Assembly (NCBI GenBank): GCA_018303655.1
Contig: JAGVXT010000029.1
Location: forward strand, 1 to 37,051
From: Candidatus Woesearchaeota archaeon
GTDB lineage: Archaea; Nanobdellota; Nanobdellia; Woesearchaeales; GW2011-AR4
Length of the DNA stretch: 37,051 nucleotides
Direction: 5' to 3'
The stretch's first letter is position 1; each line of letters begins with the position of its first letter. The notes below the pieces were generated by a model that searched no databases, was not told the DNA's origin, and saw only the letters and a list, made by a program, of their open reading frames with translations. This document shows positions 4,515-24,894 of this stretch, one piece after another. A program made the position numbers and the translations under genes.

Positions 4515-5201
4515 ATGGCAAAACACAATATCATAAAGCTTGAGAACGTATGGAAAGTTTATAAAATGGGCGAGGTAGAGGTACAAGCCCTCAGAGGGAT
4601 AAACCTTTCAATACCTCAAGGGGAATTTGTGGCAATTACCGGCTCAAGCGGCTCAGGCAAAAGCACCATGATGAATCTTGTGGGCTGCTTGGACCTGCCG
4701 ACAAAGGGAACTATCTACTTGGACGATAAAGACATTTCCAAGCTAAATGAGTCTGACTTGGCTCAAACCAGGGGCAAGAAAATAGGGTTTATTTTTCAGC
4801 AATTCCACTTAATTCCAACTTTAAGTGCTCTTGAAAATGTAATGCTTCCTTTGGAGTTCCAGAACATGCCTTCTGATGTTGCAAGGAAAAGGGCCAGCGA
4901 GATTCTTGATTTGGTTGGGCTTGGAGACAGGGTGAACCACTTGCCATCGCAGTTGTCCGGAGGGCAGCAGCAAAGAGTGGCGATAGCAAGGTCGCTTGCC
5001 AATAACCCGGATGTAATCCTTGCTGATGAGCCCACAGGAAACCTCGACAGCAAGACAGGCGCTGATGTCATGAAACTAATGCAAAATTTGTGGGATAAGG
5101 AAGGAAAAACGATAATCGTGGTAACGCATGATTTAAAGCTTGCAGACTATGCTAAAAGAATTGTTGAATTAAAAGATGGTCAAGTAATAAAAGGAGGATG
5201 A
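4515..5201 (+). CDS. ABC transporter ATP-binding protein, MacB/LolD type
   Basis: A 228-aa nucleotide-binding subunit with Walker A (GSSGSGKS, 43-50), Q-loop near 95, signature LSGGQ (147-151), Walker B (VILADE, 167-172) and H-loop H205. The size and the IFQQFHLIPTLSALENV stretch are typical of the MacB/LolD/FtsE group, which works with FtsX-like permeases rather than channel-type ones. A TATA box (ATTTAAAAG near 4468) precedes the gene. It overlaps the next gene, which has GGAGG inside its last codons, and heads a three-gene operon with an exported binding-type protein and a MacB-like permease. Confidence 0.92.
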   Translation: MAKHNIIKLENVWKVYKMGEVEVQALRGINLSIPQGEFVAITGSSGSGKSTMMNLVGCLDLPTKGTIYLDDKDISKLNESDLAQTRGKKIGFIFQQFHLIPTLSALENVMLPLEFQNMPSDVARKRASEILDLVGLGDRVNHLPSQLSGGQQQRVAIARSLANNPDVILADEPTGNLDSKTGADVMKLMQNLWDKEGKTIIVVTHDLKLADYAKRIVELKDGQVIKGG

Positions 5202-5206
5202 TGAAA

Positions 5207-6445
5207 ATGAAAAAGATTTTTCTTGGAATTATAGTGCTCTTAATCAGCGTGCTTGCTGCTCATGCTGCGGAAAATGAGCCCCCGATACTTAAAATTACCT
5301 TGCTAAACCAGAACCCAAGCCCTGCCAGAGCCGGTGACACGGTAGAGGTAAGGCTAAGGGTTGAAAATGTTGGCGGGGGCACTGTCAATAATCTTGAATT
5401 GGAGATGCTACAAGTATATCCATTCACTGTGATTGACGGGCAGCCTTTGCAGAAAATTGGCACTTTATACGCTTACCAAAGCAACAAGAATTACGTAAAC
5501 GTTGGGTACCGATTGAGGATTGATAAGGATGCAGTAAAAGGCAAGCACGAGCTTAAGGTGAAGCATAGGCATGACAATGAAGACTGGGTCACTTCAAGCT
5601 TCAACATCGACGTCACAAGCAAGGAGTTTGCACAAATAATCTATGTTGACAAGGCTAAATTAGATCCTGGAAAGGAAACGGAAATGAAGTTCACTATAAC
5701 AAATATAGGCAATGCCCCTTTGCAGAATATGGTTTTTTCATGGTCGGAGCCAGGTGGCGTTATTCTTCCGGTTTTCTCTGACGACACGAAATACATCAAG
5801 TATCTTAATGTTAGAGATTCCATCGAGCTGGCCTATACCGTAATTGCAGATGTAAACGCAAAGCCGGGCCTGTATCATCTGGATTTAAGCTTGAAATATG
5901 AATCAACTACCGATGCAGCATCTGCCTTGATTAAAACAAAAGCAGGTATATTTGTCGGAGGAGAAACAGATTTTGATGTTGCATTTTCAGAGAGCAGCCA
6001 GGGGCAAACCTCTTTGTCTGTATCAAACACCGGAAATAATCCTGCCTTGTCAGTTTCTGTAAAGATTCCTGAGCAAAGCGGTTTCAAAATCATTGGAAGC
6101 ACTTCGGCGATAGTGGGAAACCTTGACAAGGGGGATTACACCATTGTTTCATTCCAGATAGTGCCCAATGCAATGGCAACCAGCGGTCCACAAAGCAAGC
6201 AAAGTTCTAACAACAACCTTAAGGTGATTATAGACTACACTGACACAACAGGAGAGAGAAGGAGCGTCGAAAAAAATGTTGCCATCCAGTTTAAAAGCTC
6301 AACAGACAGCCAAGCCCCACTGCAATCCGGAACAAAGGAAAAAAGCTTCTGGCAGAGCAATGCATTTTATGCTTCGGCAATAATCATTGTTTTGGCCTTG
6401 GTTTTTGTTCTTTACAGAAAAAAAGGAATCTTCAAAAAGAAATGA
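5207..6445 (+). CDS. Exported CARDB/COG1361-like protein of the ABC operon
   Basis: A signal peptide (KKIFLGIIVLLISVLAAHA) is followed by tandem immunoglobulin-like modules of the CARDB/NEW3 sort, recognisable from repeated RAGDTVEVRLRVENVG-type segments near residues 40, 150 and 260. A C-terminal membrane helix and the basic tail YRKKGIFKKK follow, so the protein sits on the outer face anchored by its C-terminus. Three ATGs (5198, 5201, 5207) are possible; GGAGG at 5193-5197 fits 5207 best. Its place between ATPase and permease suggests it is the extracytoplasmic partner, perhaps in export of surface molecules. The substrate is unknown. Confidence 0.8.
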   Translation: MKKIFLGIIVLLISVLAAHAAENEPPILKITLLNQNPSPARAGDTVEVRLRVENVGGGTVNNLELEMLQVYPFTVIDGQPLQKIGTLYAYQSNKNYVNVGYRLRIDKDAVKGKHELKVKHRHDNEDWVTSSFNIDVTSKEFAQIIYVDKAKLDPGKETEMKFTITNIGNAPLQNMVFSWSEPGGVILPVFSDDTKYIKYLNVRDSIELAYTVIADVNAKPGLYHLDLSLKYESTTDAASALIKTKAGIFVGGETDFDVAFSESSQGQTSLSVSNTGNNPALSVSVKIPEQSGFKIIGSTSAIVGNLDKGDYTIVSFQIVPNAMATSGPQSKQSSNNNLKVIIDYTDTTGERRSVEKNVAIQFKSSTDSQAPLQSGTKEKSFWQSNAFYASAIIIVLALVFVLYRKKGIFKKK

Positions 6446-18446: not shown

Positions 18447-18565
18447 AAAAAATATACAAAAGCGGATTTAAGGTAATAAATAAACCTTTCTAATATAAAT
18501 GGGAATTTTTATTACTGCTAAGTTTCAATAAAAGCATTTATAATGTTGTGCAGGAGTTATTCCTT

Positions 18566-19882
18566 ATGTATGATATCTTCATAGGAAGAAGCGAGGCTGA
18601 GAAGGAAAAATACGGCACTCAAGGCGCTGTTTTTATCGGCAAGCACTATGTCAAGATGGGCCAGACTGTCTCATTGTCAAACAAAGTGTATCTTGATGTT
18701 TCTAAATCCCATGTTGTTTTTATTGTTGGAAAAAGGGGCAGCGGCAAGAGCTACACAATGGGAGTTATCGCAGAGGGAATTCATGACTTACCGGATGAAA
18801 TCAAGAAAAATCTTGCTGTTGTGATGCTTGACACAATGGGAATTTACTGGACAATGAAGTACCCCAACAACAAGGAAAAGCACTTGCTTGATGAGTGGGA
18901 AGTGGAAAGCAAGGGCATAAACGTGCAGATTTTCACTCCTATTGGATTTTATGAGGAATACAAGGAAAAAGGAATTCCAACTGATTTTCCGTTCTCAATA
19001 AAAACAAGCGAGATAAGCGCAGAGGAGTGGTGCATGATTTTCAATGTTTTGGTGACAGAGTCTATTGGGATTTTAATAGAGAGGGTAATAAATAACCTGC
19101 GGGAAGAGAAAAAAGATTACGGAATTGATGACATTATAAAGGCTGTTGAGGCTGATGACAGGTCTGAAAAAGGCATCAAGGATGCTGTTGAGAACAGGTT
19201 TTTGGTTGCTGGAAAATGGGGATTGTTCAGCAAAGAAGGGACTTTGATTGAGGACCTTGTTATACCCGGGCAGATAACTGTGCTGGATGTAAGCGCCTAC
19301 ACAACAACAGCAGGCGCTGAAAACCTCAGGAGCCTGGTCATAGGATTAGTTGCGCAGAAATTGTTCGTGCAGAGGATGGTTTCAAGAAGAACAGAAGAGG
19401 AAGCTGCAATAAGCGAAGAAATTCATTTTTTTGAGGAGGAAAGAGAAGAGAAAAAAGAGCCGATTGTGTGGCTTATAATTGACGAGGCGCATGAATTTTT
19501 GCCGAGCAAAGGCAAGACTCCTGCAACAGCTCCCTTGATAACTGTCCTTAGGGAGGGAAGGCAGCCCGGAATCTCTCTTGTTTTGGCTTCTCAGCAGCCC
19601 GGCAAGATTCATACAGATGTAATCACACAATCAGACATTGTCATTGCTCACCGCATTACTGCAAACATCGATGTGCAGTCTTTAGGAGGGTTGATGCAAA
19701 GCTACATGAGGGAAGGATTGGACAAGCAGCTTAATATTCTGCCTCCGGAAGAAGGGGCTGCAATCGTATTTGACGACTTGAATGAAAAGCTTTATCCGAT
19801 AAGGGTGAGGCCAAGGTACACATGGCATGGTGGAAGCGCTCCGACTGCATTGCCGAAAGAGAAGAAAGTGTTTGAGTTTTGA
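18566..19882 (+). CDS. HerA/DUF87-like hexameric ATPase
   Basis: A 438-aa FtsK/HerA-type P-loop ATPase: Walker A GKRGSGKS (55-62), Walker B in VWLIIDEAHEFLP, then TVLREGRQPGISLVLASQQP and the AHRITANIDVQSLGG sensor/arginine region, followed by the normal RVRPRYTWHGG close. HerA proteins translocate DNA in end resection with NurA; no nurA, mre11 or rad50 is seen here, so a repair role is not shown. The frame opens at a GTG at 18548, but GGAG lies nine bases before the ATG at 18566. Divergent from the thioredoxin-like gene, with TATA-like elements between them. Confidence 0.87.
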   Translation: MYDIFIGRSEAEKEKYGTQGAVFIGKHYVKMGQTVSLSNKVYLDVSKSHVVFIVGKRGSGKSYTMGVIAEGIHDLPDEIKKNLAVVMLDTMGIYWTMKYPNNKEKHLLDEWEVESKGINVQIFTPIGFYEEYKEKGIPTDFPFSIKTSEISAEEWCMIFNVLVTESIGILIERVINNLREEKKDYGIDDIIKAVEADDRSEKGIKDAVENRFLVAGKWGLFSKEGTLIEDLVIPGQITVLDVSAYTTTAGAENLRSLVIGLVAQKLFVQRMVSRRTEEEAAISEEIHFFEEEREEKKEPIVWLIIDEAHEFLPSKGKTPATAPLITVLREGRQPGISLVLASQQPGKIHTDVITQSDIVIAHRITANIDVQSLGGLMQSYMREGLDKQLNILPPEEGAAIVFDDLNEKLYPIRVRPRYTWHGGSAPTALPKEKKVFEF

Positions 19883-19943: not shown

Positions 19944-21164
19944 ATGACCAAAAAAGAGAACAGCAACAAGTCGGAAATAAAGCTGGAAACATTAACTGCC
20001 AAAGGCGACGGGTTGGGAACAATAAAAAACGCACGCGCTATTTCTAATGTGGCGTTGGCAGTCTTCATGATTAGTGCAAGTCTCGCTTTTTTTGAATTTG
20101 CATATTTTCACTCGGAAATCCAGCCGCCGGAAGATGTTTTTGGCGGCATAGGGTTTTTTGTTGGCGGCTCTGCAATCATAGCCTTTATCGGGTTTCTGTT
20201 TGGACTTGTTCCTGCCAAAACATCAAAAAAATTGGAGCTAACTCCGTTAACGATAAACTTGCTCCTGTCTGCAGCGTTATGCACAACTATTCTGGAGTAT
20301 TTTTTGGGCTTATGGGGCAAAAGCAGAATTCTTGTGATAATAATTCTGCCGTCTATGGTTATATTGCTTTCATTTTCCTATGTTGCCGGCTTTAAAGCAG
20401 GGAAAAAAGTGACTAAGCTTGTCAATGCCAAAGTGCCAAATTTTTATAAATACATTTTATCGGACAGAAAATTTAGAAGATACTCCTTTTTTGTTTTTTG
20501 CGGAATTTGTGCAATATCAATCTTTCTATTGGCTTCCATAGTCATTCAGAAAGCCGATGATTTTTCCGGAGTAGACGGCAGGCTGAAAAGATGCGAAAGG
20601 CTAAAGCATGTCAGCTGCACTGAAAAAGTGCTGGCAGCCAATGCTGGCAAACTTGAAGAAGATTCCTGCAACAAGCTGGATATAACAAAAAATATGTGCC
20701 TATCGAGGCTTGCCTTCAGCAAAAGCGATATTTCTCTTTGCTACAAGGCGAATGACTGGCAATGTGTAAGGCGCATATTAAAATCCTTGGACAACCCAAT
20801 AAAGATTTGCGACAACGCCCAAGATTTGAGCAATAAAGAAGACTGCATAAGCAAGGTAATTTTTTACACAGATTCAAAAACTACAGAAGATATTGCCAAT
20901 GACATCAAAGTCTGCAATGTAATAAGAACAGACAACACAGAATCTGCAATTGTAAGGCAATCATGCTATTACAGCGTCAGCGCCAAGGCATTCAAGCTTG
21001 GCTTTCATGACTTTGCATTGGATATATGCAGGCAAAGCCAAAACCCGAATATCTGCTTTAATAATCTCGCATTCAACAGCAAAGACAGCATTATCTGCAA
21101 TGAAATTATCGATACACGCATGAAATCAACGTGCAAGCAAAGGGTGTTTGATGTTTTATCTTAG
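19944..21164 (+). CDS. Membrane protein with an extracytoplasmic Cys-repeat tail
   Basis: The 406-aa product has a polar N-terminus, about five membrane helices within residues 35-205, and a C-terminal region of about 200 residues with some 20 cysteines in short helical units such as RLKRCERLKHVSCTEKVL, SDISLCYKANDWQCVRRIL and ALDICRQSQNPNICFNNLA. These units, two Cys about 8-10 residues apart per helix pair, look like a degenerate tandem repeat stabilised by disulfides. No family is recognised. It begins the exported cysteine-rich group that continues to 23963, though it may have its own promoter (AT-rich elements at 19908-19938). Confidence 0.65.
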   Translation: MTKKENSNKSEIKLETLTAKGDGLGTIKNARAISNVALAVFMISASLAFFEFAYFHSEIQPPEDVFGGIGFFVGGSAIIAFIGFLFGLVPAKTSKKLELTPLTINLLLSAALCTTILEYFLGLWGKSRILVIIILPSMVILLSFSYVAGFKAGKKVTKLVNAKVPNFYKYILSDRKFRRYSFFVFCGICAISIFLLASIVIQKADDFSGVDGRLKRCERLKHVSCTEKVLAANAGKLEEDSCNKLDITKNMCLSRLAFSKSDISLCYKANDWQCVRRILKSLDNPIKICDNAQDLSNKEDCISKVIFYTDSKTTEDIANDIKVCNVIRTDNTESAIVRQSCYYSVSAKAFKLGFHDFALDICRQSQNPNICFNNLAFNSKDSIICNEIIDTRMKSTCKQRVFDVLS

Positions 21165-21253
21165 ACTCTAGTCTTGGTTTTTCCAAAAATCAGTATTTCT
21201 ACTGGTACCCAGTCAATAAAGTTTAAATAACCACAATTTCCTAAGTATTTACT

Positions 21254-21847
21254 ATGTCCATTATTGCAAAAAATCCAAGGTCGCAGGCAGCTATGGAATT
21301 TTTGTCTTCTTATACTTTTGCGATAATGGCTGTGCTTTTGGCATTATCTGTTTTAATTTATTTTGGAATGTTTGGCAGCAAAATGCTGCCAAAAAGGTGC
21401 ATCATCCAGCCAGGAATTGCGTGCTTGGATTTTCTTGCCAGCAGAGATCCCCTTACAGGCATCGGAGATATCCAAATAGCTTTGGAAAATCAATTTCCCT
21501 ATGACATTAGAACAGTAAACGTAACTGCGAGTGGATGCATCATTTCAGCAGTTGCACAAAACATTATAGCTAACGATGTAAGAGTTTTCACAACCCGAGG
21601 CTGCTCTTTTCCAGCCAAATCTTATTATTCAGGCCAAGTCAATGTAACCTACCTTAACCTCAAGTCTGGCATAAAGCACATTGCTTTTGGAACTTTAGAC
21701 GCACCTATTTACGACCAAATTTTAACAAGCACATCGCCAACTGCATGCAGGAATGCAAATGATGCAGGGCTTTGTGATGGCTTGGATGTGGTTTATGGAA
21801 TTGGGTATAAACTGGCTTGCTGCACAGAGTACACCTTGTGCTGCTGA
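21254..21847 (+). CDS. Type IV pilin-like protein with a C-terminal Cys module
   Basis: The N-terminus RSQAAMEFLSSYTFAIMAV is the archaeal pilin-type signal: a basic stretch, then QAAMEF (Glu five into the hydrophobic segment), then a long helix. The mature part is beta-rich with several cysteines. The last 34 residues have Cys spacing C-x8-C-x14-CC-x5-CC ending exactly at the stop, the same as in the next gene's product. A TATA element (GTTTAAATAACC near 21219-21231) lies at the right distance from the ATG. Such QAAMEF proteins are frequent in DPANN genomes; whether this one polymerises is unknown. Confidence 0.78.
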   Translation: MSIIAKNPRSQAAMEFLSSYTFAIMAVLLALSVLIYFGMFGSKMLPKRCIIQPGIACLDFLASRDPLTGIGDIQIALENQFPYDIRTVNVTASGCIISAVAQNIIANDVRVFTTRGCSFPAKSYYSGQVNVTYLNLKSGIKHIAFGTLDAPIYDQILTSTSPTACRNANDAGLCDGLDVVYGIGYKLACCTEYTLCC

Positions 21848-21886
21848 TAAATGCGCATTGATTATTATACTTGAAGTGATGCAAAA

Positions 21887-22132
21887 ATGAGCATAAGATT
21901 AATAAATAAGTCAAATTATAAATCCTGTATGAGGATAGCTGCTGTAATATTGCTGCTGACAATCCTTGCAGGATGCAGTAAGCCGATAGAAAAGGAACCT
22001 GTTCATTTGTCTGAATTGCAAATTTCAGCATGTAATTCTGCTCACGAAGCAAATACTTGTGACACAAGGCTTGCTGATGTAGAGATTGTAAAAAAAGAGG
22101 ATTGCTGCAAAGCTCTAGGCAAATGCTGTTAA
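21887..22132 (+). CDS. Small lipoprotein with the same C-terminal Cys module
   Basis: An 81-aa protein with a basic N-terminus, a hydrophobic signal and a lipobox-like LTILAGC, so it is probably lipid-anchored outside the cell. Its last 34 residues carry Cys at the same six positions as the pilin-like protein before it (C-x8-C-x14-CC-x5-CC-end), plus matching Ala residues and a CD pair. It ends one base before the start of the large Cys-rich gene, and 39 bases separate it from the pilin-like gene, so all three look co-transcribed. I know no family for it. Confidence 0.7.
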   Translation: MSIRLINKSNYKSCMRIAAVILLLTILAGCSKPIEKEPVHLSELQISACNSAHEANTCDTRLADVEIVKKEDCCKALGKCC

Positions 22133-22133
22133 G

Positions 22134-23963
22134 ATGAAAAAATTAGCTGTTTGGTGCTTGCTCATAGTAATGATGTCTAGCTTAGTATATGCGGAGCTTT
22201 GTGAAGCTTCAAGCGTCAAACAATCCCTTAGGAAAAACTTGTACCTTTTTTTTATTGAGCCTGGCTCTAATACCTTGCCCGTAAGTGAATTAAAAGATTT
22301 ATTGAGCTTTTATCTGAATATTCCTTCTGACATTAATACAGTTGACTGCTCAGCTGTAGGGGCCGTCTCAGGCATAAAGATTGCGGACATTGTGACTGCA
22401 GGGGAAACTTCTCCAGATATCATACCAAGCTGCGCTGACTTTACATCTTATGCAGAATGCGCTCCTTCAAAGCCCTTGTACTGCTATGCTGGCACTTTAG
22501 TTGAGAAATGCGGTGAATGCGGCTGCAAGCAGGGATTTACATGTAGTTTAGACGACAAATGCGTTCCTCTTGAAGACGGAGTTAGTTGCTCTAAAGACAG
22601 CGACTGCGGAGCAAGCGGTCTTGTGGGAAATTATTACTGCTCAGCTGACAAAACGCAGATTATGAGAAATAATGCCCAATACACATGCTTAAATCCGAGT
22701 ACAACAAGCTCTTCTTGCCAAGCTAGCAATAATTCCCAAGTTCTAACAGCTTGCAATACTGCATCCGGACAAAGCTGCGTGGACGGGTATTCGGGCTGTT
22801 TGTCTATCAGCACTAGCGATGATTATTGTGTTGATGCCGACGATCAAACAGCGGGTCCAACTCCTTCTGCAGAGAGCTTTTTTACTTCTAATTTGGTTAC
22901 AGGGATTTATTTAGGCAAATACTTCCAATATTATGATTCATGTGATGGTGGAGTGACTGGATCAAATGTTATAGAGCAATTCTGCAACGGCAATATGAGG
23001 AGCAATTACACAAAAGTATGCAATGATGGATGTTATATCGGCAAGTGCAAAGTATCCTGCATTGATACGGACCCGGGTACAGTATACGAACTAAAAGGTT
23101 ATACTTATGGAGAACTAGGTGATGGCTCAAAATTTAATGTTTCTGATGTATGCATTGACAATAAAAAGCTAAGCGAAGTTCTTTGTGATACATGGGGTGA
23201 TGATATTTATGACATTATACCAGTTGATTGCGCTTACGGCTGCAGTGATGGCGCTTGCAATGCAGGCCCAGCGTATTGCCAAGATACTGACGGTGAAAAC
23301 AAATTTTTAATGGGATATGTTAATTATACGTACGGAATTTGGCTTAATTATAATTTAGACGTCTGTTGGGGTTCTTCACAAGTTAAAGAGCTAATTTGCA
23401 GTGGAACTAATGCTGAGAATAAGTACCTTACATGCGATGCCGGCTATACCTGTTTTAATGGAGCTTGTGTTGATTGCTCCAGTGGAATTTGCTCTGGAAG
23501 TGGAAATTCGTGCTTTGATACTGATGAGGAAACACCTTCAAATATAAACAATTATACATCGTGGGGAAATGTGCCAAGTGTTAATGGATACACTTACAGT
23601 TATTCATATGGCTCGTTTTACAATTACTCTGATTACTGCGCTGATTCAACTCGTTTGATTGAACACTATTGTTATAATGGTGCAGCAATAACACTTGCTG
23701 CTATTGATTGCCTTTACGGATGCAATAACGGAGCGTGCAATCCTGGACAGAATTCATGTTACGATTCTGATTCAGGCTATAACTATCTGTTTAAAGGATA
23801 TGCTTATGGAATACAAAATAGTGCTTTTGTAAATAGGTCAGACTATTGCATTAATCAAAGCCATATAATTGAACAAACGTGCTATGATGGATCCATAATC
23901 TACCCATACCAATTTGATTGCACCATTATTGGAAAGAAATGCTCTGACGGTGCTTGTGTTTGA
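22134..23963 (+). CDS. Secreted protein with five Cys-rich tandem repeats
   Basis: A signal peptide (1-20, ending VYA) leads to a 609-aa extracytoplasmic protein with no membrane anchor. Residues 100-230 hold irregular Cys clusters such as KCGECGCKQGFTC. From C232 on there are five repeats of 73-82 residues, starting at C232, C309, C382, C460 and C542. Each reads roughly C-x-D-[ST]-D, GYxYG, [SL]D-x-C, E-x-x-C, DC, GC, G-A-C, with six or more Cys per unit. Tyr, Asn and Ser are abundant. A surface or adhesion role is plausible but inferred. It follows the lipoprotein gene by one base. Confidence 0.75.
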   Translation: MKKLAVWCLLIVMMSSLVYAELCEASSVKQSLRKNLYLFFIEPGSNTLPVSELKDLLSFYLNIPSDINTVDCSAVGAVSGIKIADIVTAGETSPDIIPSCADFTSYAECAPSKPLYCYAGTLVEKCGECGCKQGFTCSLDDKCVPLEDGVSCSKDSDCGASGLVGNYYCSADKTQIMRNNAQYTCLNPSTTSSSCQASNNSQVLTACNTASGQSCVDGYSGCLSISTSDDYCVDADDQTAGPTPSAESFFTSNLVTGIYLGKYFQYYDSCDGGVTGSNVIEQFCNGNMRSNYTKVCNDGCYIGKCKVSCIDTDPGTVYELKGYTYGELGDGSKFNVSDVCIDNKKLSEVLCDTWGDDIYDIIPVDCAYGCSDGACNAGPAYCQDTDGENKFLMGYVNYTYGIWLNYNLDVCWGSSQVKELICSGTNAENKYLTCDAGYTCFNGACVDCSSGICSGSGNSCFDTDEETPSNINNYTSWGNVPSVNGYTYSYSYGSFYNYSDYCADSTRLIEHYCYNGAAITLAAIDCLYGCNNGACNPGQNSCYDSDSGYNYLFKGYAYGIQNSAFVNRSDYCINQSHIIEQTCYDGSIIYPYQFDCTIIGKKCSDGACV

Positions 23964-24034: not shown

Positions 24035-24104
24035 ATTTAAACACGGAAGATAAACCGAAACCTTTATATATCAATTGCTATCATATGCTATACAGGTGAT
24101 TGAT

Positions 24105-24413
24105 ATGGAAACTGAGCAATTCAACATAAGAATGCCAAAGGATTTGGTGCAGGATTTGGATATAATATCAAAACTATTGAAAGTGAATAAATCTGAATGG
24201 GTTAAAACCAAGCTAGCTGAAGAAGTGCATGAGGAAAAGAATAAGCTTTTAATGGAATTAAGCACTTTGTACGCCAATGGAATGATTAGCAAAGAGAAGA
24301 TAGAAAAGATGGTAGGAAAGGATATTGCTGATGAGATGGAATTTATAAAGAAAAAAGCCATAGAATCCGCTAAAAAGGGAATTGAAATTGGAAGAAAATT
24401 CAGAAAAAAGTGA
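24105..24413 (+). CDS. Ribbon-helix-helix antitoxin (VapB-like)
   Basis: The 102-aa product opens METEQFNIRMPKDLVQDLD, the beta-strand and helix of a ribbon-helix-helix DNA-binding domain, continuing with KVNKSEWVKTKL. The C-terminal half is a charged helix suited to wrapping a toxin. The frame is open to 24075, but AGGTGAT is placed seven bases before the ATG at 24105. A TATA box (CCTTTATATATC near 24061) precedes it. The gene overlaps the PIN-domain gene behind it. Antitoxins of this kind usually repress their own promoter; no operator was defined. Confidence 0.8.
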   Translation: METEQFNIRMPKDLVQDLDIISKLLKVNKSEWVKTKLAEEVHEEKNKLLMELSTLYANGMISKEKIEKMVGKDIADEMEFIKKKAIESAKKGIEIGRKFRKK

Positions 24414-24894
24414 GTATATATTTGACACTTCTGCTTTAATAAGTCTGGGAACTGTTAAAGTAATTGATAATGTATTGAAGCTGACCAAAATAGTAATAAC
24501 TCTTTCCATAATTAAAGAACTTGAAGAATTCGCAAAACATGATGATAATTATGGAAAAGCAAGCAAAGAAGTGCTAAAATACAAAGATAAGCTTATTGTG
24601 AAGAAGGCAGAAATTAAAGAGTCAATTGAATATATTCAGACAACTGATAATGAGCTTTACAATCTTTCTAAGACACTATCCTGTACATTAATAACTGACG
24701 ACATAAAATTTTCTCGTCATGTTGATGGAAAAATTGAAACTCAATTTAGCACTTTTTTCTTGACTTTATTGGTTTCATCTAAGCATTTATCAAAGGAAAA
24801 GGCATTAGAGCTATTGGAAAAATTAAGGGACATTAGAAACTGGAGGGACAACATAATCTACTTAACAACAAAAGACGAGCTTGAAAAGCTTTAA
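24388..24894 (+). CDS. PIN-domain toxin-like ribonuclease (VapC-like)
   Basis: PIN toxins cleave RNA with a cluster of acidic residues. Seen here are YIFDTSALISLG near the N-terminus (first catalytic Asp), a central KELEEFA acidic helix, and the late TTDNELYNLSKTLSCTLITDD with the remaining acids. No ATG is available: TTG at 24388 has AAGGGA seven bases upstream, and TTG at 24382 is the alternative. It overlaps the antitoxin gene by 26 bases, the usual coupled arrangement. At about 168 aa it is longer than most VapC proteins (about 130), with a C-terminal helical extension (residues 125-168). Confidence 0.78.
   Translation: MEENSEKSEYIFDTSALISLGTVKVIDNVLKLTKIVITLSIIKELEEFAKHDDNYGKASKEVLKYKDKLIVKKAEIKESIEYIQTTDNELYNLSKTLSCTLITDDIKFSRHVDGKIETQFSTFFLTLLVSSKHLSKEKALELLEKLRDIRNWRDNIIYLTTKDELEKL

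Follow-up and report, generated by a model that had tools for sequence, protein, structure and literature searches.

Homologous six-cysteine tails on a pilin-like protein and a lipoprotein of Woesearchaeota, and a candidate docking partner in their secreted neighbor

The window analyzed here, the whole 37,051-nucleotide contig JAGVXT010000029.1 of a Candidatus Woesearchaeota archaeon (assembly GCA_018303655.1), contains three consecutive forward-strand genes for exported proteins, two of which end in a similar six-cysteine tail. The host genome is archaeal and 1.26 Mb in size, and its close relatives in the named genome collection carry the labels Woesearchaeota or Nanoarchaeia. The first gene (positions 21254 to 21847) encodes a 197-aa type IV pilin-like protein, assigned from its open reading frame (ORF), its relatives, and AlphaFold model m8ca20dbe3fbc. 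It has the features expected of a type IV pilin, namely, a class III signal (RS/QAAMEF), a hydrophobic N-terminal helix, a C-terminal beta domain, and assembly machinery encoded in the same genome. The second gene (21887 to 22132) encodes an 81-aa lipoprotein, recognized from its ORF and relatives, with the signal peptide and lipobox Cys of archaeal lipoproteins (LAGC, residues 27 to 30), and most of its relatives are similar in this respect. The third gene (22134 to 23963), assigned in the same way, encodes a 609-aa secreted protein with 51 Cys residues, here called the cargo, which consists of a signal peptide, a conserved N-terminal domain (NTD), a Cys-rich CGC module, and variable Cys repeats. 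The NTD (22197 to 22400; cargo residues about 22 to 89) is helical according to alignment and model and contains the Cys pair C23/C72. Because the pilin gene is separated from the lipoprotein start by 39 nt and the lipoprotein gene from the cargo start by 1 nt, the three genes look, from the sequence, like one operon. A TATA-box-like element, TTTAAATA (21222 to 21229, forward strand), can be read about 25 nt 5′ of the pilin ATG; it is the probable promoter of this three-gene cassette and would give a leaderless transcript.

In ORF translation, the pilin ends in ACRNANDAGLCDGLDVVYGIGYKLACCTEYTLCC and the lipoprotein ends in ACNSAHEANTCDTRLADVEIVKKEDCCKALGKCC, each directly followed by the stop codon. 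Both 34-residue tails (21743 to 21844 in the pilin and 22028 to 22129 in the lipoprotein) follow the gap-free pattern A-C-x2-A-x2-A-x2-C-D-x13-CC-x5-CC-stop. The original prediction, which placed coinciding Cys at positions 2, 11, 26, 27, 33, and 34, Ala at positions 1, 5, and 8, and Asp at position 12, was accurate in this respect, as it was in calling the rest of the two proteins unrelated, with a pilin signal in one and a lipobox in the other. As a rough estimate, the Cys positions would coincide by chance with a probability of 1/C(34,6) = 7e-7, or about 5e-6 when the CC pairs are taken as units. A DNA-level search for the Cys spacing found 21 matches among 36 genomes of the same family, compared to 0 for a reversed-pattern control. 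Sixteen of the 21 encode, in frame, proteins like these two, with adjacent pairs in G011, G012, G004, G045, and G046. Further proteins with the pattern, on whose existence the original prediction had staked its module, are therefore numerous in related genomes. A looser, variable-gap DNA pattern run across the order gave mostly random matches and served only to pick candidates.

In alignments of 20 lipoprotein-type and 16 pilin-type tails, family-wide conservation was seen for the six Cys, for Ala 5, and for a Leu at position 14/15 but not for Ala 8 or Asp 12. The two tail profiles matched each other in hhalign with an E value of 9.8e-6. With all columns shuffled, scores stayed far below the real one, and with the Cys columns kept in place, it was reached in only 3 of 100 trials, which means that the similarity goes beyond the cysteines. 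By these profile comparisons, the two tails are homologous. A chance or low-complexity origin of the common tail is ruled out by the reversed-pattern control, the profile match, and the shuffles, and a simple duplication of neighboring genes is ruled out by the unrelated bodies and the varying gene order. In the AlphaFold2 model of the pilin (31 sequences; mean predicted local distance difference test [pLDDT] score, 89), an N-terminal helix (residues 8 to 36) and a beta-sandwich (strands 48 to 154) precede the tail, which is predicted to form a compact block of three short helices (162 to 171, 174 to 181, and 185 to 193; block pLDDT about 82 to 90). Fold searches with the pilin gave beta-sandwich matches that include an archaeal pilus subunit (8q30); the Sulfolobus AAP filament is among the PDB fold matches. 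No Pfam or NCBIfam family exceeded its curated cutoff for the pilin, the lipoprotein, or the NTD, the PDB gave no significant sequence match for the tail or NTD profiles, and no description of the tail module was found in the open-access literature, outside which most subscription journals fall. This agrees with the earlier statement that no described domain has this spacing, and on the evidence of these searches, the tail and the NTD are undescribed domain families.

The carriers of the tail are diverse. First, five groups of pilin-like proteins bear the tail, with no detectable similarity between their bodies; a class III signal expression matched 17 of 22 of these proteins, and tail-less close relatives of the window pilin also occur. 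Second, the small tail-bearing proteins are mostly lipoproteins, and six have a plain membrane anchor. Third, in G231, a lipoprotein bears the pilin-type tail. From the five bodies, the tail-less relatives, and this swap, we conclude that the tail is a mobile C-terminal domain on exported, membrane- or pilus-anchored carriers. One pilin tail variant (G343 C1) has only four Cys. Tail matches are scattered sporadically over many families of the order. None of the viral contigs had an A1 match, and the A1 scan of 237 genomes of the phylum gave matches in the same order only and none outside it. One relative was found on a contig labeled Altiarchaeales (L108; the label is unchecked). This contig also encodes a protein that looks by eye like a TrbC/VirB2-type membrane subunit (4659 to 5375, forward strand), ends in the Cys tail CQKASAVNQC...CCCDNGYPKCC, and stands 5′ of two tail-bearing membrane proteins; it may be the module again, carried by a secretion system of another kind. 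The window genome (G000) has two T2SSE/T2SSF loci (C33 and C7) with pilin-like genes at each. In G243 (L087, 1912 to 9351), the cassette is embedded in a series of small pilin-like genes, with the tail on a 504-aa protein and a papain-family peptidase as cargo.

The NTD is about 70 residues long and lies behind the signal peptide of the cargo, with the consensus CEVxxVKxxLRKxLxxYFxxPxxSxLSxxEIKDLLxFYLSIxxxxxTVDCSxxGxxS, and it is often followed by a CsDGTxYGeCSxxKPxYCYxGxLxxKCxxCGC module. Its model is helical (mean pLDDT 92) and had no significant fold match in the PDB. A dockerin or EF-hand identity, raised by weak PDB sequence matches, was rejected because of this lack of a fold match and because the calcium ligands of the loop are not conserved. 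Both Cys of the NTD pair are present in 20 of 23 sequences and both are absent in the other 3 (Fisher p 6e-4, an optimistic value in that related sequences are counted); they are kept or lost together, which is what an intradomain disulfide would predict.

An NTD gene adjoins a tail gene in 21 independent loci. In a profile search of the 353 genomes of the order, the 20 strongest NTD-covering matches (E value of 1.3e-13 or better) all adjoin a tail gene. Having been built from tail-linked loci, the profile favors close relatives, although the NTDs of G020, G045 C6, G269, G343, and G288 were not part of it. In G288, it was the NTD that led to the locus, and only then was the divergent tail seen. 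Since each genome has about 1,300 genes, as estimated from genome size, this linkage is not accidental. It is kept in G210, where the genes are ordered lipoprotein, cargo, and pilin. NTD proteins are also present in pilin-only cassettes (G020, G045 C6, G243, G269, and G288) and in lipoprotein-only cassettes (G001, G155, G214, and G343 C30). Either anchor can thus occur without the other, as expected if either would suffice.

The region behind the NTD is highly variable. By Pfam, the cargo is a papain-family (C1) peptidase in G243 (E value of 1.2e-35), a clostripain C11 in G269 (4.6e-48), and an M64 peptidase in G020 (2.6e-11), and it is NosD/beta-helix and laminin-G-like in G343. Other cargo matches are CARDB (G045), DUF2341 (G046), PKD (G011), and Big_7 (G004), and propeller-like Kelch/DUF5050 repeats occur in the cargo of G155, G210, and JACQNI. 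The Cys-rich repeats of the window cargo have no Pfam match. At an NTD locus of G134 at which profile searches detected no tail, there is a subtilase (1.5e-40); about 1 kb upstream lies a pilin-like protein whose Cys-rich end is divergent. In G343 (L165, 6153 to 10620, forward strand), a tail lipoprotein is followed by two tandem NTD cargo genes, both encoding NosD-like beta-helix proteins; two further cassettes lie elsewhere in this genome.

Given this linkage, homology, and modularity, we consider it somewhat more probable than an even chance that the tail is a disulfide-stabilized dock, that the NTD of the co-encoded cargo is its ligand, and that the pilin and the lipoprotein are its anchors. 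The tail would be a small three-helix docking domain, displayed on a type IV pilin and, from the same operon, on a membrane lipoprotein, and the NTD would act as the plug. The newly exported cargo would be held at the membrane by the lipoprotein and handed over to the pilin, which would take it onto the filament and through the envelope to the outside; lipoprotein and pilin would be alternative anchors for a polymorphic surface cargo. This is the simplest account because the tail and the NTD are constant, whereas the pilin body, the anchor type, and the cargo vary. The original prediction of a docking module on two differently anchored exported proteins stands as far as the homologous tails, the unrelated pilin bodies, the lipoproteins, and the lack of a described domain are concerned. 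However, the likely partner of the tail, judging from gene linkage, is the third co-encoded secreted protein with its conserved NTD and not mainly the other tail. The alternatives of a metal-binding module or a sorting tag found no support; a variant with four Cys and a compact predicted fold make disulfides the likelier choice.

Several observations weigh against a dock and its plug. The module is sparse: the pilin-type tail profile has matches in 19 of the 353 genomes, and the lipoprotein tail profile, at an E value of 0.01, in 33 of 353, about 15 of them convincing. A few tail genes without a recognizable NTD partner occur, in G019, G251, G344, G275, VGLX, and, twice, JAHEXG; G255 has a LamG protein with a divergent start. 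NTD-like domains are also found in other settings (G132, G134 C26, G135, and G239), and the NTD-tail linkage may reflect co-expression without contact. NTD-like domains with no tail gene nearby lie at L203 (5136 to 6251; three copies), L205 (5670 to 6266), and L207 (4498 to 4971). The proteins that carry them adjoin large secreted proteins whose sequences look RHS/SpvB-like (SpvB match at L203, E value of 1e-6), and these loci are a second setting for the NTD.

Other functions of the tail were weighed against the same data. The two tails could bind each other in a pilin-lipoprotein hetero-complex that might, for example, keep a pilus or pilus-like initiator tethered at the membrane, with the third protein only co-expressed. 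That the tails are adjacent, homologous, and found together in about 13 cassettes would fit such a complex, but it appears unlikely, as the five pilin-tail-only and four lipoprotein-tail-only cassettes all keep the NTD protein and the NTD is the most constant partner. It is also rather improbable that the tail is a structural, disulfide-stabilized cap with no specific partner. The six Cys and the compact three-helix prediction would suit a cap, and Cys-rich exported proteins are common in these genomes; however, if the tail were only a cap, neither its linkage to one specific N-terminal domain in about ten families nor its absence from most same-family pilins would be expected. A thiol-exchange or foldase element helping to oxidize the Cys-rich secreted protein would be in keeping with the vicinal CC pairs and with a cargo that is often Cys-rich, as in the window. 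This redox-helper role is disfavored, to the point of being very improbable, because in G269 a complete tail stands beside a cargo of 676 aa with a single Cys; furthermore, the G243 and G269 NTDs are without both Cys. Metal binding through CC-x5-CC, for which the tandem vicinal Cys pairs might speak, is hardly probable at all, given that the two tail types have no common conserved His/Asp/Glu ligand pattern, that the four-Cys variant exists, and that an exported location favors disulfides.

The proposed pairing of tail and NTD has partial likenesses among known systems. In cohesin-dockerin systems, diverse enzymes are mounted on an anchored protein by way of small interaction modules. The likeness is a works-like analogy only: there is no sequence or fold match, and the NTD is a helix-loop-helix without conserved calcium ligands. 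In the type IVb pili of Vibrio cholerae (TcpB-TcpF) and enterotoxigenic Escherichia coli (CofB-CofJ), a pilin-class protein recognizes the N terminus of a secreted operon partner, which the pilus machinery exports or carries; the TcpF signal is a flexible N-terminal peptide bound by the trimeric minor pilin (PMC9565799). Similarly, the linked loci described here encode a pilin-like tail protein and a secreted protein with a conserved N terminus. They differ in the folded helical NTD, the putative Cys-tail dock that is also present on a lipoprotein, the archaeal host, the highly variable cargo, and tail-NTD binding that we infer. Homology to TcpB/TcpF was not detected in the PDB sequence searches with tail and NTD or in the NTD fold search, and TcpB is absent among the listed pilin fold matches. 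In the modular (bimodular) pilin PilB of Streptococcus sanguinis, it is the adhesive module that is joined to the pilin (PMC8179133). Both cases have a functional module grafted on a pilin for filament display, but in the loci described here the pilin carries a small module, and the variable activity is found on a separate co-encoded protein. Passages of Makarova et al. 2016 describe archaeal type IV pilus loci that hold Cys-rich exported proteins, minor pilins, and possible adhesins (PMC4858521). Those passages contain no C-terminal Cys tail, lipoprotein partner, or NTD cargo, and the main text does not mention Woesearchaeota.

The window cassette is flanked by other genes on the same strand. 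Directly 5′ of it (19944 to 21164) is a gene for a 406-aa protein with several membrane spans and C-terminal Cys-spaced helical repeats (C-x6 to 10-C), which matched neither Pfam nor the tail profiles, and further 5′ (18548 to 19882) is a HerA/DUF87-type ATPase gene (Pfam DUF87, E value of 1.4e-14). Just 3′ of the cassette (24075 to 24894) are a small probable antitoxin gene and then a PIN-domain gene. A similar pair, an RHH_1 antitoxin and a 160-aa probable toxin, lies near the G155 cassette (L083, 874 to 1639, reverse strand). The presence of toxin-antitoxin-like pairs near both cassettes may be a coincidence.

Little is known of the means by which symbiotic DPANN archaea make contact with, hold on to, or digest their partner cells, and annotation is missing for most of the proteins that they export. 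The three-part cassette of these uncultured Woesearchaeota looks like an undescribed way to mount interchangeable surface proteins in tiny archaea. A broader reading, which we offer tentatively and hold to be somewhat short of an even chance, is that of an undescribed polymorphic surface display of ultra-small archaea. In it, a mobile six-Cys dock on interchangeable pilus or membrane anchors would take a standard plug placed before peptidases and lectin-like or adhesin-like effectors, which might serve to attach to or degrade host and neighboring cells. If the dock and plug do pair, they would make it possible to recognize surface effectors across Woesearchaeota by sequence, and the pilus-linked export or display of a separate cargo, known from bacterial type IVb pili, would have an independent archaeal counterpart.
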